Shown here piece after piece: positions 25,886 to 45,767 of a stretch of DNA of 46,180 nucleotides (its first letter is position 1; each line of letters opens with the position of its first letter). Below the pieces are notes generated by a model. It had not been told where the DNA came from, searched no databases, and was given only the letters and a program-made list of their open reading frames with translations. Origin of the DNA: a virus. The stretch lies in IMG/VR virus record IMGVR_UViG_3300036859_000386, positions 1-46,180 of that record; one strand, 5' to 3'. A program made the translations under genes and the position numbers.

Positions 25886-26446
25886 TCAAATACGATTGAA
25901 CCTGATGCCCACATTGCGCGGATTCGGCAGACCCGCAGCGATCTTCGCGGCAGCTTCTTCGCTCGCCACCGCGGCGACATAGCGATCGCGAAGCACGAGC
26001 AGGTCCGCAATCGGCGTGCGTTTCAGGCTTCGGCTGCCGATGGCGTATTCCTGCTGATCCTTGGTCGCGCGCCCTTCGAGGACTGCGTTGATCGCGTCGA
26101 GCACCTTACGCGCATGAGATCGGCCGTCATAACCCTGCGCGGCCGTCGCCGGGTTCGCCTTGACCTCGAGCTGGCCATCGCCGAGCGATTGACGAATCGG
26201 CCCGGCTTTCTCGACCCAGCGCGACCAGGTATAGAAGCCAGCCACCCAGCTCGTCGTGATCCCGGCGGCTGCCTGGACGCGATAGTCCGTGCCGGAGGTC
26301 GTAGCCGTGATATCGATCGGCGTCTGCGTGGGCGTGGTGAACCGCGGCACCAGGCGGTACTTGAGCGTCCACCCATCGGCGGGCGGGTACTCGGGAACGC
26401 TGTCCAGAAAATCCAGCGTGTCGCCGGCGATCAGTTCGTCGATCAT
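25886..26446 (-). CDS. Conserved head-module protein of unknown function
   Basis: The 186-aa product starts MIDELIAGDTLDFLDSVPEYPPADGWTLKYRLVPR and ends with a helix and RNVGIRF. I recognise this family as a phage hypothetical placed between terminase and portal genes, where lambda has gpW. Beta strands dominate the first half and an HARKVLDAINAVLEG helix lies in the second. The start overlaps the stop of the repeat protein. A head completion role is inferred only. Confidence 0.65.
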   Translation of the reverse strand: MIDELIAGDTLDFLDSVPEYPPADGWTLKYRLVPRFTTPTQTPIDITATTSGTDYRVQAAAGITTSWVAGFYTWSRWVEKAGPIRQSLGDGQLEVKANPATAAQGYDGRSHARKVLDAINAVLEGRATKDQQEYAIGSRSLKRTPIADLLVLRDRYVAAVASEEAAAKIAAGLPNPRNVGIRFNRI

Positions 26447-28095
26447 TTGGCTGGATCTCCGATTCGTTTCATGGTCACCGTCCCGGTCTTCGGACCAATG
26501 CGCTCGTTCTCAGCCGCCGCAGGCGCGCTGCCGATGCGCTCATGCGTGTCGACATCCGGCGTTTTGCTGCCAATGCGGTTATGCTCGTCGACAGGCATGG
26601 CGCCAATGCGCAGGTGCGAGTCGATGTCCGGCGTCGCCCCGATCCGCGCGCGCAGCGGCTCGGCGGTGTAGGCGATCTGCGCGACGTACTGCGGCGTCTT
26701 CCCTGTGTAGAGGTGAACCATCACCGGCGGACGCACGTGCATTTGCAGCTTCGGCGCCCGCCCGGTGTAGCTGTGTCCCGCGGCCGGGGGCAACATGGTC
26801 GGCCCGATGAATAAACCCGGCAACCGCCCCGTGTACGAGTGCGCCGCGCTCCCTGGCTGAACTCGCGAACGAAGCTGCGGAATCCGGCCGACGTACGAGT
26901 GCCCTACCGCCGTCGGACGCACGCTCGCGCGCGCCTGAGCCGCCTGCCCGATGTAGGCGTGCGTCACCTGTCCAGGCTGGACCCGCGCCTTCACCTGCGG
27001 GCTCTGGCCCGTATACGTGTGCGTCGCCACGCCTGGCCGGACCATCGCACGGATCTGAGCCACACGCCCGAGGTAGCTGTGCGTGGCTGCCGGCGCGATG
27101 AGCGCGAGGCCGGCCGAGATGCTCGGCATCCTGCCCGTGTACGTATGCGTCGCCGCTGCGGGTTGAACGCGCGAGCGGACTTGAGGCGTCCGGGTGACGT
27201 AGCTGTGAGCAACCGCGCCTGGCTTGATCGACCCGACGAACTTCGGCGCCACCGCCGTGTAACTATGCATCGCCTGCGGCGCGCTGGTCGTCCCGACCAT
27301 CCGCGGGATCTGTCCCGCGTAGCTGTGCGTGACGGTCCCTGGCTGAACGCGTGCCCGGACCTGCGGAGGGCGACCGACGTAACTGTGCGTTGACGTCGGC
27401 GCGATCACGCTCTGGCCGGCCGTGATCCCCGGCACGCGCCCAGTGTAGCTGTGCGTCGCCTGCGCCGGCTGGACCCGCACCTTGATCTGCGGGACGCGAC
27501 CGACGTAACTGTGCGTCACTCCTGCCGGCTGAACCCTCGCCCGCACCTGCGGGGACTGAGCCGTGTACGTGTGCGCAGCCTGAGCCGGGCGCAGCGTCAA
27601 GACGAACCGAGGAACTTGGTCGACGTAGTTGTGCGTCGCCTGCGCCGGCTGGATCCTCGCCCTCACTTGCGGCGTCCGCCCGATGTAGCTATGCGTCGAG
27701 GTCGGCACCGCGACGCTCACGCCGGCCGCGATCCCCGGCACGCGCCCAGTGTAGCTGTGCGTGACCTGCGCCGGCTGAACCCTCGCGCGCGCCTGCGGCG
27801 TCCACGCCGTATAGGTATGCGCAACCGCCCCAGACTGCACCCGCACCCGCACTTGAGGCACTCGCGGGATGTAGGAGTGCGTCGCTTGCGCGGGCCGGAG
27901 CGTCCCGACGAACTTCGGCGCTTGCCCGGTGTAGGCATGCGCCACCTGCGCTGGCTGAACCCGGGCTCGCACCTGCGGCACGCGCCCGACGTAGCTATGT
28001 GTCACTACACCGGCCGCAACGGTGTCCCCGCCGGCGACTATGTCGGCGAAGTCGTCGTCGAACCACGCACGGACGATCAGGTCGCCCGCATTCAT
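26443..28095 (-). CDS. Tandem-repeat structural protein (22 copies of a ~20-residue unit)
   Basis: The 550-aa product has a short N-terminal region (MNAGDLIVRAWFDDDFAD) and then 22 copies of a unit of the form THSYTGR.PQ.RARVQPAQ. I counted the HxY core at each copy. The DNA period is about 60 bases, with variants inserted every fifth unit or so (GIAAG..VAVPTS). The unit alternates short strands and turns and may build a beta-solenoid or fibre. The last ~70 residues hold a second repeat with six RIG motifs about 11-13 residues apart. It is encoded between adhesin-like genes and the head genes. A head fibre or accessory fibre is my best guess. The protein family is not one I can name. Confidence 0.8.
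   Translation of the reverse strand: MNAGDLIVRAWFDDDFADIVAGGDTVAAGVVTHSYVGRVPQVRARVQPAQVAHAYTGQAPKFVGTLRPAQATHSYIPRVPQVRVRVQSGAVAHTYTAWTPQARARVQPAQVTHSYTGRVPGIAAGVSVAVPTSTHSYIGRTPQVRARIQPAQATHNYVDQVPRFVLTLRPAQAAHTYTAQSPQVRARVQPAGVTHSYVGRVPQIKVRVQPAQATHSYTGRVPGITAGQSVIAPTSTHSYVGRPPQVRARVQPGTVTHSYAGQIPRMVGTTSAPQAMHSYTAVAPKFVGSIKPGAVAHSYVTRTPQVRSRVQPAAATHTYTGRMPSISAGLALIAPAATHSYLGRVAQIRAMVRPGVATHTYTGQSPQVKARVQPGQVTHAYIGQAAQARASVRPTAVGHSYVGRIPQLRSRVQPGSAAHSYTGRLPGLFIGPTMLPPAAGHSYTGRAPKLQMHVRPPVMVHLYTGKTPQYVAQIAYTAEPLRARIGATPDIDSHLRIGAMPVDEHNRIGSKTPDVDTHERIGSAPAAAENERIGPKTGTVTMKRIGDPAK
26640..28030 (-). repeat. 60-bp coding tandem repeat array
   Basis: The repeats encode the HxY...PQ.RARVQPA unit in the gene at 26443-28095. 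Copies have diverged at many third positions but keep the amino acids. This argues for selection on the protein rather than recent slippage. Spacing and in-frame coding exclude a CRISPR array. Confidence 0.8.
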
Positions 28096-41537: not shown

Positions 41538-42415
41538 GCGCGCTCACCATCTTCGCCGCCACCTTCGTGTCCGTGTTCGCGCTCGGCCTGCAGAGCCTCA
41601 ACGTCAACCAGGGCTACTACTTCGCCGCCATCGCGACGAGCTTTTTCATCTCGACCGGCCACATTTTCCTGTATCGCTACATGCCGCAGCCGGGAAGCCT
41701 CGACCTGGTCGGCTATTACCTCGGCGGCATGGCCGGCATCGCCTCGAGCATGTGGTTCCACCGCAGCGTCAAGGCCTGGTGGAGCGCGCGGCGCAATCGC
41801 AGGCACCCGGGCCAGCACGATCCGCTGCCGGACCTGGCGACGTGGACGCTCGCGCGCCGCTTCAGACGGCCAGTGAATCAGATCTATGCGAAGGCCGCAG
41901 CGCTCGGCCTCGGCAAGAGTGACGCCTTCTTCGCCGGGCCGCTTGCCTGGCGGCTAGACGGTGTCATCGGCACAAAAACCCGTTTCAAAAAGGGCATGGT
42001 GCCGTGGAACAAGGGCACGCATTGCGTCGCCGGCGGCCGCTCGGCGGAGACGCGCTTCAAGAAAGGCCACCGCCCGCACACCTGGCTGCCGATCGGCGCC
42101 GAGCGCTTGTCGAAGGAGGGCTATCTTCAACGCAAGATCAGCGACACCGGCTACACGCCGCGCGACTTCAAAGCGGTTCATAACCTGATCTGGCAGGAGA
42201 TTCATGGGCCCATTCCTCCGCACCATGTCGTCGCCTTCCGCGATGGCAACAAGCGCAATCTCGATCCGGTCAATTTCGAGTTGATCAGCCGCGTGGAGCT
42301 CATGCGGCGCAACAGCTATCACAACTATCCGAAGCCCATCGCGCGCGCCATCCAGCTGCGCGGCCAGCTCGTGCGTCAGATCAACCGGAGGATGCGCCTT
42401 GAAAAACAAGATTGA
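41531..42415 (+). CDS. Membrane protein fused to a C-terminal HNH endonuclease
   Basis: The 294-aa product joins two unlike parts. Residues 1-90 have about three membrane segments (ALTIFAATFVSVFALGL, YFAAIATSFFISTGHIFLY, YYLGGMAGIASS). From about 100 the sequence is that of a phage HNH protein: TLARRFRRPVNQIYAKAAALGLGKS, TRFKKGMVPWNKG, then ETRFKKGHRPHTWLPIG, LQRKISDTGYTPRDF, AVHNLIWQEIHGPIPPHHVVAFRDGNKRNLDPVNFEL and LMRRNSYHN. The HNH part lacks its usual N-terminal ~20 residues, so the junction looks like a deletion or insertion fusion. Confidence 0.8.
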   Translation: MLSALTIFAATFVSVFALGLQSLNVNQGYYFAAIATSFFISTGHIFLYRYMPQPGSLDLVGYYLGGMAGIASSMWFHRSVKAWWSARRNRRHPGQHDPLPDLATWTLARRFRRPVNQIYAKAAALGLGKSDAFFAGPLAWRLDGVIGTKTRFKKGMVPWNKGTHCVAGGRSAETRFKKGHRPHTWLPIGAERLSKEGYLQRKISDTGYTPRDFKAVHNLIWQEIHGPIPPHHVVAFRDGNKRNLDPVNFELISRVELMRRNSYHNYPKPIARAIQLRGQLVRQINRRMRLEKQD

Positions 42416-42662
42416 AGATCTCCGCAACCACCTGTTCGAGACGATCGAGGCCTTGAAGGACGCCGAGAAGCCGATGGAGCTCAACCGCGCGAGGACCATT
42501 GCGGAGGTCGCGCAGACGATCATCAACACCGCGAAGGTCGAAGTCGATTTTCTGCGCATGACGCAGGGCCAAAGAGGGACTGGCTTCATTCCGCACGAGC
42601 AACTTCCGGGAACACCGGAACGGCCGCGCCTCGTAAAAGGCAAAGCCACAACCGACGATTGA
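42399..42662 (+). CDS. Conserved hypothetical protein before the DGR
   Basis: The 87-aa product (KNKIEDLRNHLFETIEALKDAEKPMELNRARTIAEVAQTI...) is a helical phage protein I have seen next to HNH genes of the preceding type. The start is TTG at 42399, overlapping the HNH end. It is the last gene before the DGR targets. The function is unknown. Confidence 0.7.
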   Translation: MKNKIEDLRNHLFETIEALKDAEKPMELNRARTIAEVAQTIINTAKVEVDFLRMTQGQRGTGFIPHEQLPGTPERPRLVKGKATTDD

Positions 42663-42677
42663 GAGAGCGAGATTCCC

Positions 42678-43007
42678 ATGTCACAAGCCGTCGCACGCGA
42701 TACCGTCATCCCCGTAGCCGCTCAAGCCTACAACCTGGTCTTGCTGCCAGGTGAATTCACTGGGCCCTGGAACGATGCTGTCGCCTGGGCGAAAGAGCAG
42801 GGCGGTGAATTGCCCACGCGAGCCGAGCAGCTCCTGCTGCTCGCCCAAGCACGCGATGAATTCAAGAAGGACTGGTATTGGTCGAGCGAGCAGCACGCCG
42901 GCGACTCTGCCTCCGCTTGGTTTCAGGATTTCGACTACGGCGGCCAGAACGGCAACCACAAGGGTTACGAGCTCAGGGCCCGTGCGGTCCGCAGATTGCC
43001 GATTTAA
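42678..43007 (+). CDS. DGR target protein 1 (DUF1566/C-type-lectin-like)
   Basis: The 109-aa product has the target-protein pattern NLVLLPGE...WNDAVAWAKEQGGELPTRAEQ, WYWSSEQHAGD, then the variable segment (residues 72-107) and the invariant end ELRARAVRRLPI. Such domains expose variable residues on a C-type-lectin-like fold and bind ligands. The variable repeat lies at 42890-42996. No signal peptide or membrane segment is seen, so it acts in the cytoplasm or on the virion. Confidence 0.88.
   Translation: MSQAVARDTVIPVAAQAYNLVLLPGEFTGPWNDAVAWAKEQGGELPTRAEQLLLLAQARDEFKKDWYWSSEQHAGDSASAWFQDFDYGGQNGNHKGYELRARAVRRLPI
42890..42996 (+). repeat. DGR variable repeat VR1
   Basis: It aligns without gaps to the template repeat at 44566-44672. 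By hand I count 13 differences, every one at a template adenine. The first and last bases match exactly (GCAG... and ...CGCAGAT). The unchanged GC-rich end AGGGCCCGTGCGGTCCGC may mark the initiation of mutagenic homology. Confidence 0.93.
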
Positions 43008-43035
43008 CCATTCGCCAATTCCACCGAGGATTCCC

Positions 43036-43440
43036 ATGTCACGCGCCACTGCACGCAACCTGAAGTCCGCCGCCGCGGCCACCATCATCCTGCCCAAGCT
43101 CGCCAAGGGCGAGCGCTATGCCGGGATCTTGCTCGACGAGAAGGGCGCGCCGGGCCATCACCTAGTGCTGCTGCCCGGCACGAGTGAGAAGGACCTCAAC
43201 TGGGAGGACGCCAAGGCCTGGGCGAAGAAGCAGGTCGGCGAGTTGCCGACGCGCCGCGAGCAATCGCTGCTGATGGCGAACGCCAAGCAGCACATCGAGG
43301 GCCGCTGGCACTGGTCGAGCGAGCAGAACGCCGGCGTCTCTGCCTACGCTTGGTGTCAGAGTTTCGACGACGGCAGCCAGAGCAGCTTCCTCAAGGATAG
43401 CAAGCTCAGGGCCCGTGCGGTCCGCAGAGTGCCGATTTAA
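43036..43440 (+). CDS. DGR target protein 2
   Basis: The 134-aa product shares the target layout with protein 1: HHLVLLPGTSEKDLNWEDAKAWAKKQVGELPTR, WHWSSEQNAG, then variable residues 97-132 and the end KLRARAVRRVPI. The N-terminal ~40 residues are unlike the other targets. It is a paralogue that probably arose by duplication of the cassette. Confidence 0.88.
   Translation: MSRATARNLKSAAAATIILPKLAKGERYAGILLDEKGAPGHHLVLLPGTSEKDLNWEDAKAWAKKQVGELPTRREQSLLMANAKQHIEGRWHWSSEQNAGVSAYAWCQSFDDGSQSSFLKDSKLRARAVRRVPI
43323..43428 (+). repeat. DGR variable repeat VR2
   Basis: The gap-free alignment to the template shows 12 differences, all at template adenines. A G replaces the final T just after the homology. 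Codons 15, 16, 18, 20 to 23 and 26 of the repeat are most changed. Confidence 0.93.
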
Positions 43441-43473
43441 CCATTCAGCCATTCACCGAGAGGATTTTCACGC

Positions 43474-43965
43474 ATGGAAAACGAACTCAGCGCCGAGCAT
43501 CTGCGCCAGGAAGTCACGGTCACATTGCCGCTCGGCGCGGTGCTGCGGCTCGGCAATGGCGGCGAGCCCTTGGAGCGCGAGGCCCTGGGGCTGCGCGCGG
43601 CCTTCCAGAGAGACACCAGCCCGGAGATCGGCGAGGCCTACGAGGGCGGCATCTACGCCGGCCTGTCGCTCCACGACGGCCTGCCTGTCGAGCTCGTGCT
43701 TCTGCCGGACGACGAGGAATTGAAGTGGGTCGACGCCGTCGCATGGGGTGAGAAGCAGGGCGGCTCGCTGCCCTCGCGCATCGATCAGCTGGTGCTCCTC
43801 CAAAACCTGAAGAGCGAATTCAAGGAGCGAGCGTATTGGTCGAGCGAGCAGGACGCCGGCGACTCTGCCTTCGCTTGGTATCAGAGTTTCAGCTACGGCG
43901 ACCAGTTCAGCTACCCCAAGGATGGCAAGCTCAGGGCCCGTGCGGTCCGCAGATTGCCCATTTAA
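43474..43965 (+). CDS. DGR target protein 3
   Basis: The 163-aa product has a longer N-terminal region (MENELSAEHLRQEVTVTLPLG..., GIYAGLSLHDGLPVELVLLPDDEELKW) before the target core and the variable segment (about 126-161). The end KLRARAVRRLPI is shared. The extra N-terminal domain may link it to a different partner from targets 1 and 2. Confidence 0.88.
   Translation: MENELSAEHLRQEVTVTLPLGAVLRLGNGGEPLEREALGLRAAFQRDTSPEIGEAYEGGIYAGLSLHDGLPVELVLLPDDEELKWVDAVAWGEKQGGSLPSRIDQLVLLQNLKSEFKERAYWSSEQDAGDSAFAWYQSFSYGDQFSYPKDGKLRARAVRRLPI
43848..43954 (+). repeat. DGR variable repeat VR3
   Basis: It has 13 differences from the template by hand, all at template adenines, and no other mismatch over 107 nt. 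Changes such as AAC to TTC at codon 20 and AAC to GGC at codon 26 need two events in one codon. Confidence 0.93.
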
Positions 43966-43990
43966 CCATTCGCCCATTCGCGAGACTTGA

Positions 43991-44347
43991 TTGAGCCTGC
44001 ATAGCGACACCGAGATCTACCGCGCAGTGGTCGAGCTCGCGAAGTTCGTCGCGCGCGCGGTCGAGAACATGCGCCGCGACATGAAGCCCACGATGGGCAG
44101 GATGCTGCTCGAGGAGTGCGTCTGGATGGGCGTGGTGGTGCGCCGCGTGAACATCGCGATCGACCAGGCCAAGCTGCCGCTCCTCGAGGAGCTGCTCGAG
44201 CAGCTCGAGATCGTGCAGTTCGTGCTGCGCCTAGCGCGCGACTGCCGCTACGTGGCGCCCGCGACCTTCGCCGACTCGGTGCCGCTCACCGCCTCGGTCG
44301 GAAGACAGGCCACTGCCTTGAGGAATTACTTTGCACCCGCGCCGTAA
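43991..44347 (+). CDS. avd: Accessory variability determinant (Avd-like)
   Basis: The 118-aa product is an all-helical protein (SDTEIYRAVVELAKFVARAVENMRRD, EECVWMGVVVRRVNIAI, LLEELLEQLEIVQFVLRLARDCRYV) of the size and pattern of Avd. Avd is a basic four-helix bundle that forms a pentamer and binds the reverse transcriptase and template RNA in known DGRs. The start is TTG at 43991. It sits between the target genes and the template repeat, as expected. Confidence 0.75.
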   Translation: MSLHSDTEIYRAVVELAKFVARAVENMRRDMKPTMGRMLLEECVWMGVVVRRVNIAIDQAKLPLLEELLEQLEIVQFVLRLARDCRYVAPATFADSVPLTASVGRQATALRNYFAPAP

Positions 44348-44565
44348 GCGCCTGTTGCGCGACCGCCATGGCGATCGCGCCCGTGCGCTCTTCAATCTGA
44401 TCGCGCCGCTGCCCGCCACGGGCACCGACATGCGCAGCACGGAGACCGCTGGCCCTCAGTCCCCGCAATGGGATCTGTTCGGCCAGAGCGCGTCCGGCGC
44501 AGTCTCCCCGTCGATCGGCCGGCAGCCAGGCCTTCGGCAGGGCGACGTGGAAGCCGCGATCGACC

Positions 44566-44672
44566 GCAGAACGCCGGCGACTCTGCCTACGCTTGGTATC
44601 AGAATTTCAACAACGGCAACCAGAACAACAACCACAAGGATAACAAGCTCAGGGCCCGTGCGGTCCGCAGAT
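44566..44672 (+). repeat. DGR template repeat (TR)
   Basis: This 107-nt sequence is adenine-rich (33 by hand count) compared with its surroundings. Read in the target frame, its codons are mostly AAC/AAT/AAG. Each VR differs from it only at adenines. It lies between avd and the reverse transcriptase. A GTG at 44658, inside the repeat, may be the start of that gene. Confidence 0.93.
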
Positions 44673-45767
44673 CGAAGCGGCGCGGACTTTTCTTACAGGG
44701 AGCTGCTCGGCGCCTGGCTCGACTGCCGGCGCACCAAGCGCAACACCCACGGCGCGCTCGAGTTCGAGGCCGAGCTCGAGGCGAACCTAGACGAGCTCCA
44801 CGCGGCGCTGGCGGACGGCAGCTATGCGCCCGGGCGCTCGATCTGCTTCGTCATCACGCGGCCGCGGCCGCGCGAGGTGTGGGCGGCGCCGTTCCGCGAT
44901 CGCGTGGTTCACCATCTGCTCTACAATCGCGTCGGGCCGCGCTTCGAGGCCTCGTTCATCGCCGATAGCTGTGCCTGCATCGAAGGGCGCGGCACGCTCT
45001 ACGCCGCGCGCCGCCTCGAGGCAAGAGCGCGCTCGATCACCAAGGCCTGGTCGAGGCCCGCGTACTACCTGAAATGCGATCTCGCCAACTTCTTCGTCGC
45101 GATCGACAAGCGCATCCTCCACGAGCTGCTCGCCGCCAGGATCAGCGAGCCCTGGTGGCTGGATCTCGCCGGGCGCATCCTCTTCCACGATCCGCGCGCC
45201 GACGTCGAGGTGCGCGGCGCGCGCGGCTGTTTCGGCCTGATCCCGCCGCACAAGAGCCTCTTCCACCAGGACGCGCTCCATGGCCTGCCGATCGGCAATC
45301 TGAGCTCACAATTTTTCGCGAACGTCTACCTCGACGTCCTCGATCAGTTCGTCAAACACCGGCTGCACGCGCGCCATTACGTGCGCTACGTCGACGACTT
45401 CGTGCTGCTGCACGAATCGCCGCAGCAGCTCAACGCCTGGCGCGCCGCGATCGAGACCTTCCTCGCCGAGCGCCTCGCCATGCGCCTCAACCCGGCGAAG
45501 ACCATCCTGCAGCCCATCGCGCGCGGCTTCGACTTCGTCGGCCACGCCATCAAGCCCTGGCACCGCCAGATCCGCCGGCGCACCTTTAACGAGGCCCTGA
45601 GCCGAACGGCGGCCGTCGACGCCGACGAGCTCCACCGTACCGCCAACAGCTACTTCGGCCTGCTGCGCCAGGCGACGCATAGCCATCATGATCGCGCGCG
45701 CGTGGCGAACCTCGCGCGCTTCCGAGGTCTAGCCGTCGACCATCGATTGACCAAGGCTTACGCGTGA
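44658..45767 (+). CDS. DGR reverse transcriptase
   Basis: The 369-aa product has the retroelement polymerase motifs. REVWAAPFRDRVVHHLL lies near the start, YYLKCDLANFFVAIDK has a metal-binding Asp, GLPIGNLSSQFFANVYLD is near 209-226, and the catalytic YVDD is at 244-247. RGFDFVGHAIKPW belongs to the thumb. Adenine-specific mutagenic copying of the template repeat is its role in this family. The GTG at 44658 is my choice because FSYRELLGAWLDCRRTKRNTHG should lie near the N-terminus; the longer frame from TTG 44331 runs through TR. The stop overlaps the next GTG. Confidence 0.92.
   Translation: MRSADRSGADFSYRELLGAWLDCRRTKRNTHGALEFEAELEANLDELHAALADGSYAPGRSICFVITRPRPREVWAAPFRDRVVHHLLYNRVGPRFEASFIADSCACIEGRGTLYAARRLEARARSITKAWSRPAYYLKCDLANFFVAIDKRILHELLAARISEPWWLDLAGRILFHDPRADVEVRGARGCFGLIPPHKSLFHQDALHGLPIGNLSSQFFANVYLDVLDQFVKHRLHARHYVRYVDDFVLLHESPQQLNAWRAAIETFLAERLAMRLNPAKTILQPIARGFDFVGHAIKPWHRQIRRRTFNEALSRTAAVDADELHRTANSYFGLLRQATHSHHDRARVANLARFRGLAVDHRLTKAYA

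Follow-up and report, generated by a model that had tools for sequence, protein, structure and literature searches.

How is the template RNA of a diversity-generating retroelement (DGR) organized when the template repeat (TR) lies inside the gene for the reverse transcriptase (RT)? Mechanistic knowledge of DGRs, in the literature consulted here, comes from BPP-1, whose template is followed 3′ by a spacer RNA that brings in both RT and Avd and provides the adenine used for priming (PMC12875486). The question is raised by an element at positions 42678–45767 of the IMG/VR virus record IMGVR_UViG_3300036859_000386, which belongs to a common lineage with its structured RNA on the other side of the template. 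The whole record, positions 1–46,180 (46,180 bases), is the window analyzed here. On the plus strand, the element comprises the target genes, avd, the RT-15 RNA, the TR and RT, in this order. A conserved, covarying helix, well supported and absent from the Rfam model of RT-15, joins a single strand of this RNA to the 3′ boundary of the TR, and this template-RNA architecture is the interesting part of the locus.

A phage retroelement with adenine-directed changes

The repeats and the two enzyme-complex genes are as follows.

44566–44672, plus strand: TR, within the RT reading frame
42890–42996, plus strand: first variable repeat (VR1), 13 differences from the TR
43323–43428, plus strand: VR2, 12 differences from the TR
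43848–43954, plus strand: VR3, 13 differences from the TR
44650–44671, plus strand: 3′ part of the TR and VRs that resembles an initiation-of-mutagenic-homing (IMH) element, G+C-rich and the same in the TR and all three VRs
43991–44347, plus strand: avd, 118 amino acids, TTG start
44430–45767, plus strand: DGR RT, 445 amino acids, from ATG 44430

In gap-free alignments, all 38 of the 38 TR/VR differences lie at template adenines, which make up 33 of the 107 TR bases (hypergeometric chance 1.6e-22). VR2 is 106 bases long, its match to the TR ending one base sooner than those of VR1 and VR3, and no further VR or TR copies are present in the whole 46,180-base record. A sequence-only reading of the window had identified these repeats and differences by hand; computed alignment returns its coordinates to the base and its counts when sorted by template base, with no difference at a template G, C or T. 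Its statement that Avd and RT lie beside the TR needs correction for RT, whose open reading frame contains the TR. As a description of a known kind of element that reading is correct; the RT-15 RNA, the embedding of the TR in RT and the long-range helix were overlooked in it.

The RT matches phrog_1423 (3.3e-112), and its best solved relative is the RT of PDB 8ub7 (3e-39), which we take to be the BPP-1 enzyme. DGR RTs combine the motif (I/V/L)GxxxSQ with YxDD, and the window enzyme carries IGNLSSQ and YVDD; across 31 aligned relatives the YVDD and the IGxxxSQ core hardly vary, if at all. Against the retron_St85_RT profile it reaches 39.5 bits for a cut-off of 235, and is thus not placed among retron-family RTs. 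The accessory protein, which the sequence-only reading had called Avd-like, is recognized through phrog_3206 ('Avd protein of DGR', 3.6e-12); the matches to bAvd of Pfam (2e-4) and DivGenRetAVD of NCBIfam (6e-5) are both below the curated cut-offs. Neither RT, avd nor any of the three targets shows frame damage, and the machinery appears intact.

For comparison we assembled 235 loci, including the window, from isolated phages (Burkholderia phage Magia, Shewanella phage vB_Sb_QDWS and several Pseudomonas phages), virus contigs and bacterial genome contigs, some of which overlap. The first contig sets (80 virus and 80 bacterial genome contigs) were collected with the read-through RT as query, a ranking that favours in-frame loci; this bias is removed in a further set of 80 virus contigs ranked on the RT core alone, in part overlapping the earlier ones. 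Copies of the stretch between RT-15 and the RT core were sought in 229 loci by neutral, gap-free matching, which gave 5,911 TR/VR mismatches, 5,714 of them at template adenines. Where an adenine has changed, G stands at 2,421 places, T at 1,511 and C at 798. VRs turn up in 226 of the 229 loci: 23 have one, 165 have two, 37 have three and 1 has four, counts that cover the examined stretch around each locus, so that remote VRs would escape. Three VRs are not unusual in this lineage.

In these relatives, most upstream adenines of the TR are mutated in 40–60% of cases and those of the last ~21 bases before the helix in ~0–5%; adenines of the IMH-like part are almost never mutated, and mutated adenines mostly cease ~13 bases ahead of the GTCCGCAG motif. 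Such a stop near the TR 3′ end is expected if the last ~20 bases are an IMH-like anchor rather than mutagenized product. We note that two AAG lysine codons are largely spared: their adenines, at TR positions −27, −26 and −17 counted from GTCCGCAG (window 44636, 44637 and 44646), are mutated in 2–9% of VRs, compared with 40–60% at neighbouring adenines, a difference that may stem from purifying selection to keep the lectin scaffold or from some local shielding against mutagenesis. A BPP-1-style hairpin downstream of the VRs was looked for and rejected: none occurs in the window, and stems of at least 7 pairs follow 17% of the relatives' VRs versus 4% of control stretches.

Because adenine-specific TR/VR differences occur together with Avd, a DGR-type RT and targets of predicted C-type lectin fold with a C-terminal VR, the element is a DGR of a phage, from a widespread lineage, as the sequence-only reading had proposed on the strength of adenine mutagenesis.

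RT-15 RNA and its helix with the template boundary

The RNA elements around the TR are the following; for both helix arms the evidence is covariation.

44346–44566, plus strand: RT-15 RNA (Rfam RF03018), matched over the full model (1–192) with 126.9 bits, E 1.4e-30, gathering score 82
44390–44399, plus strand: 5′ helix arm, CUUCAAUCUG, within RT-15 and unpaired in the Rfam model
44668–44677, plus strand: 3′ helix arm, CAGAUCGAAG, spanning the TR 3′ edge

RT-15 constitutes the 221 nt that separate avd and TR, from the avd stop codon through the first TR base, and this segment, whose full-length match exceeds the gathering score, is a member of RF03018. Rfam also detects RT-15 in each of the 14 relatives tested, and a sequence profile gives an RT-15-like match in 230 of the 235 loci. 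The consensus that RNAalifold computes from 30 diverse copies has the same fold, 29 of the 45 consensus pairs having changed on both sides. The Rfam entry (gene/sRNA) has no assigned function and describes no DGR role; its model ends at TR base 1 and leaves the helix-forming strand unpaired.

In most loci the TR terminates in GTCCGCAGAT, and RT-15 contains the near-invariant single strand AAUCUG. The helix between the two regions, with five pairs within the TR and four to five outside, ends at the TR boundary, just 3′ of the IMH-like segment. Mean pairing over nine positions is 0.87 in register, versus 0.24–0.46 for slides of up to 6 bases. One pair just outside the TR is GC in 46, UA in 44, CG in 35 and AU in 6 of 149 distinct sequences (93% pairing), with a mutual information of 1.19 bits compared with a maximum of 0.11 in 300 shuffles. 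At this position and the two beyond it, the ends of the VRs, which share the repeat but not the template-RNA role, pair at only 0.61, 0.44 and 0.21. On the RT tree, 41 compensatory double changes are counted in register and 0–6 in slid registers; pair-counting on 37 sequences gives a covariation score of 0.294, versus 0.097 when shuffled and at most 0.123 when slid. The helix also ranks first in an open scan of all six-base window pairs, setting the RT-15 strand region against 140 nt from the TR end; the best unrelated window scores less than a third as high, and the result is the same for two sets that were collected separately.

The same lineage includes Burkholderia phage Magia (MT701587), with an RT 61% identical to that of the window, RT-15, an embedded TR, lectin-fold targets and three VRs. 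The third of these lies ~6 kb from the TR (locus L005, MT701587 38813–38904), and targets in the lineage can thus be remote. The Magia publication describes Avd, RT, candidate targets and IMH regions (PMC7883833); we found it silent on RT-15, on the overlap of RT and TR, and on the helix. Earlier descriptions exist of DGRs, of multiple VRs and of a TR that overlaps an annotated RT open reading frame (PMC6642488, PMC3521204, PMC8144416). Structural group 3 of DiGReF is defined from annotation, and its authors infer that the arrangement is immaterial, with TR and RT RNAs arising as separate transcripts. We found no literature that links RT-15 to DGRs or describes the helix, in a search that was incomplete and may have missed a prior description; the novelty of both is provisional.

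The embedded template and a possible role for RT-15

Besides ATG 44430, the RT frame that holds the TR offers in-frame starts at TTG 44331 (with GAGG upstream), TTG 44355, GTG 44547 and GTG 44658. Among the 76 loci collected by RT-core ranking alone, 57 keep this frame open from the RT-15 start as far as the core, versus 1 and 0 for the two other frames. The openness of those frames is, as a control, weaker than it looks, since the conserved RT-15 motif GTAGATAG places stops there, and weight is therefore put on spacing and on loci without a start in or after the TR. RT-15 carries a conserved ATGCG in 61 loci; in 49 of these it shares the frame of the RT core, at 15 distances that are all multiples of 3. 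From the TR onwards, 25 loci lack any start codon. The RT frame is open into the TR in 226 of 226 relatives analyzed, no locus has a stop after the TR, and where the frame is interrupted within the TR (30 loci), the TR itself supplies a start codon after the stop. From this pattern of stops and starts it follows that overlap of TR and RT frame is universal among these loci and that in some of them the entire TR must be within the frame. We read the leader as probably translated but permissive, its sequence being dictated by RNA and template. In loci L009, L106, L108, L112, L115 and others, mostly from Pseudomonas, the RT-15 ATG is out of frame, a stop lies in the TR, and RT starts at tandem ATG codons inside the TR.

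Like the BPP-1 DGR (mtd, avd, TR, Sp, brt), the window element has Avd, a DGR RT, adenine-specific mutagenesis, an invariant 3′ IMH and a C-type-lectin target with a C-terminal VR. In BPP-1 the TR abuts avd and 144 nt lie between TR and brt, outside which the TR is located; in the window the structured RNA is 5′ of the TR, no structured spacer (Sp) stands between TR and RT, the TR is inside the RT frame with its 3′ end 27 nt from the conserved RT core, and the strand that follows it pairs with the 5′ element. An Sp-like element in the 5′ part of the RT gene was considered and rejected: synonymous variation is unreduced there, and the scan of 140 nt from the TR 3′ end gave only the one helix.

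The non-coding RNA of retrons (msr-msd, closed by a1/a2) comprises a 5′ structured part, a template, and a helix from the 5′ part to the template 3′ end. The window shares this topology, including the closing helix, a likeness of topology only; unlike retrons, it has a DGR-type RT, Avd and VR targets. Retrons form branched msDNA from a conserved guanosine; the base that follows the 5′ arm here is G in 147 of 149 distinct relatives and A in the window.

The helix turns the TR into a loop that closes on the RT-15 fold. The likely explanation for the whole is a phage DGR with RT-15 located 5′ of the TR, the TR in the RT frame, the helix between them, and RT-15 serving as template-RNA core and priming site. 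RT-15 is proposed as scaffold and priming domain because it is a structured RNA 5′ of the TR, its strand holds the TR 3′ edge, and nothing appears constrained downstream. As the template-RNA core, RT-15 would recruit RT and Avd and would present the TR 3′ end for initiation of the cDNA, the job of the 3′ spacer in BPP-1. The 3′ side of the RT-15 arm points into the TR, which is the geometry of a primer, and a 2′-OH or nick at or next to the helix would be the most likely start. In each of the three VRs, the mutagenized cDNA would then take the place of the A-rich sequence that precedes the shared GC-rich 3′ end, with a varied surface on three small proteins of predicted C-type lectin fold as the outcome. 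Template and mRNA share the same stretch, so translation and template use probably compete.

Several observations weigh against this explanation. In the window, the helix pairs at nine of ten positions with one A•C mismatch, A44400 after the 5′ arm differs from the G present in 147 of 149 distinct relatives, and the single-sequence minimum-energy fold of the window does not show the helix. The embedded leader has no amino-acid constraint, with variation by codon position of 0.18, 0.20 and 0.20 versus 0.13, 0.11 and 0.38 in the RT core; residues 1–82 of RT, coded by RT-15 and TR, are predicted by AlphaFold2 to be disordered, the RT fold starting from about residue 83, right after the TR. Translation of the leader is what we infer from frame conservation and start-codon positions only, and the part of RT-15 in priming from geometry only. 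No extra synonymous constraint is seen in the RT gene just 3′ of the TR, by a test coarse enough that an Sp-like element concealed in the coding sequence may remain. The window comes from a single metagenomic virus record, and the element's activity is putative. Finally, RT-15 could by analogy stop reverse transcription instead, like the avd 3′ end in BPP-1.

The alternative that survives best, which we nevertheless hold to be doubtful, concerns the reading frame: its openness across RT-15 and TR would be a by-product of the conserved RNA, and the real RT start a GTG or ATG inside the TR. The lack of third-position excess in the leader is what this would predict, GTG 44658 would be a suitable start in the window, and one Pseudomonas group does start inside the TR. 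It leaves unexplained the 25 loci that offer no start there or later, and the in-frame RT-15 ATG of 49 of 61 loci, with its 15 distances in multiples of 3; even so, the TR would overlap the RT gene.

An ordinary BPP-1-like DGR in which RT-15 is only a regulatory leader, for instance controlling RT translation, with the helix as an attenuator without part in priming, seems unlikely to us. RT-15 does hold in-frame RT starts, including the conserved ATGCG, that the helix could hide or expose. Against this, the helix stops precisely at the edge of the TR, immediately 3′ of the IMH-like segment, and RT-15 and helix are retained where RT starts inside the TR and the RT-15 ATG is out of frame.

Somewhat more improbable again is that RT-15 forms the 5′ boundary at which reverse transcription stops, priming occurring from an unrecognized element inside the RT coding sequence. 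The location of RT-15 resembles that of the BPP-1 terminator motif, which lies at the TR 5′ edge, in the avd 3′ end (PMC12875486). The helix links RT-15 to the TR 3′ edge and not to its 5′ edge, synonymous constraint downstream of the TR is not seen, and the scan shows no covarying window other than the helix within 140 nt of the TR 3′ end, all of which weigh against this reading.

A degenerate remnant or an assembly artefact, conceivable for a single metagenomic record, is very improbable given 38 of 38 differences at adenines, intact RT active-site motifs, undamaged RT, avd and targets, and isolated phages, Magia among them, that share the architecture.

A broader proposal, which we offer tentatively and as slightly more doubtful than credible, is that a whole phage-DGR lineage has a rearranged template RNA: RT-15 as primer and scaffold 5′ of the template, a retron-like closing helix, and an RT mRNA that holds the template, so that enzyme synthesis is linked to mutagenesis. 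A lineage with the template inside the RT gene separates the needs of the mechanism from the peculiarities of BPP-1, and suggests a possible role for the orphan RNA family RT-15. The helix arms make a sharp test possible by arm swap, and tools for directed mutagenesis may gain from it a compact natural template RNA. Elements of this kind may be misjudged in DGR surveys where a TR located in coding sequence counts as suspect.

Target genes and neighbouring features

The three targets precede avd.

42678–43007, plus strand: VP1, open reading frame of 109 amino acids, C-type-lectin-like, VR1 at its 3′ end; weak Lcl_C match (8.5e-06, below cut-off)
43036–43440, plus strand: VP2, open reading frame of 134 amino acids, start chosen at ATG 43036 with GAGG upstream, VR2 at its 3′ end; weak Lcl_C match (3.1e-05, below cut-off)
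43474–43965, plus strand: VP3, 163 amino acids, VR3 at its 3′ end; residues 50–163 with a predicted C-type lectin fold

The VRs end 8–11 bases ahead of the stop codons of their respective genes, in agreement with the sequence-only reading, which had put each at the 3′ end of its own small gene. The three proteins are paralogues, VP1 and VP2 sharing 56 identities over 97 columns. An AlphaFold2 model of VP3 (40 sequences) has a mean pLDDT of 84, mostly >95 in the C-terminal domain, and is best matched by Bdellovibrio Bd2740 (8oks, Z 13.3) and the C-terminal domain of Legionella Lcl (8q4e, Z 12.8), followed by many C-type lectin folds; the VR would accordingly be in the C-terminal part of a lectin-fold target, as modelled. 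VP1–VP3 are not obviously tail fibres, as they are small, stand-alone proteins encoded on the strand opposite to terminase and the other structural genes. The earlier suggestion of three independent repertoires from one template is a fair reading; multi-VR DGRs, 28.6% of non-redundant DGRs (PMC6642488), are common, and this feature is hence not the point of interest of the locus.

Upstream of VP1, a small gene (42399–42662) matches phrog_2044, whose label 'RNA polymerase beta subunit' looks doubtful for 87 amino acids. Close to the structural genes, the minus strand at 26443–28095 encodes a repetitive protein of 550 amino acids with many THSYTGRVPQVRARVQP-like units.

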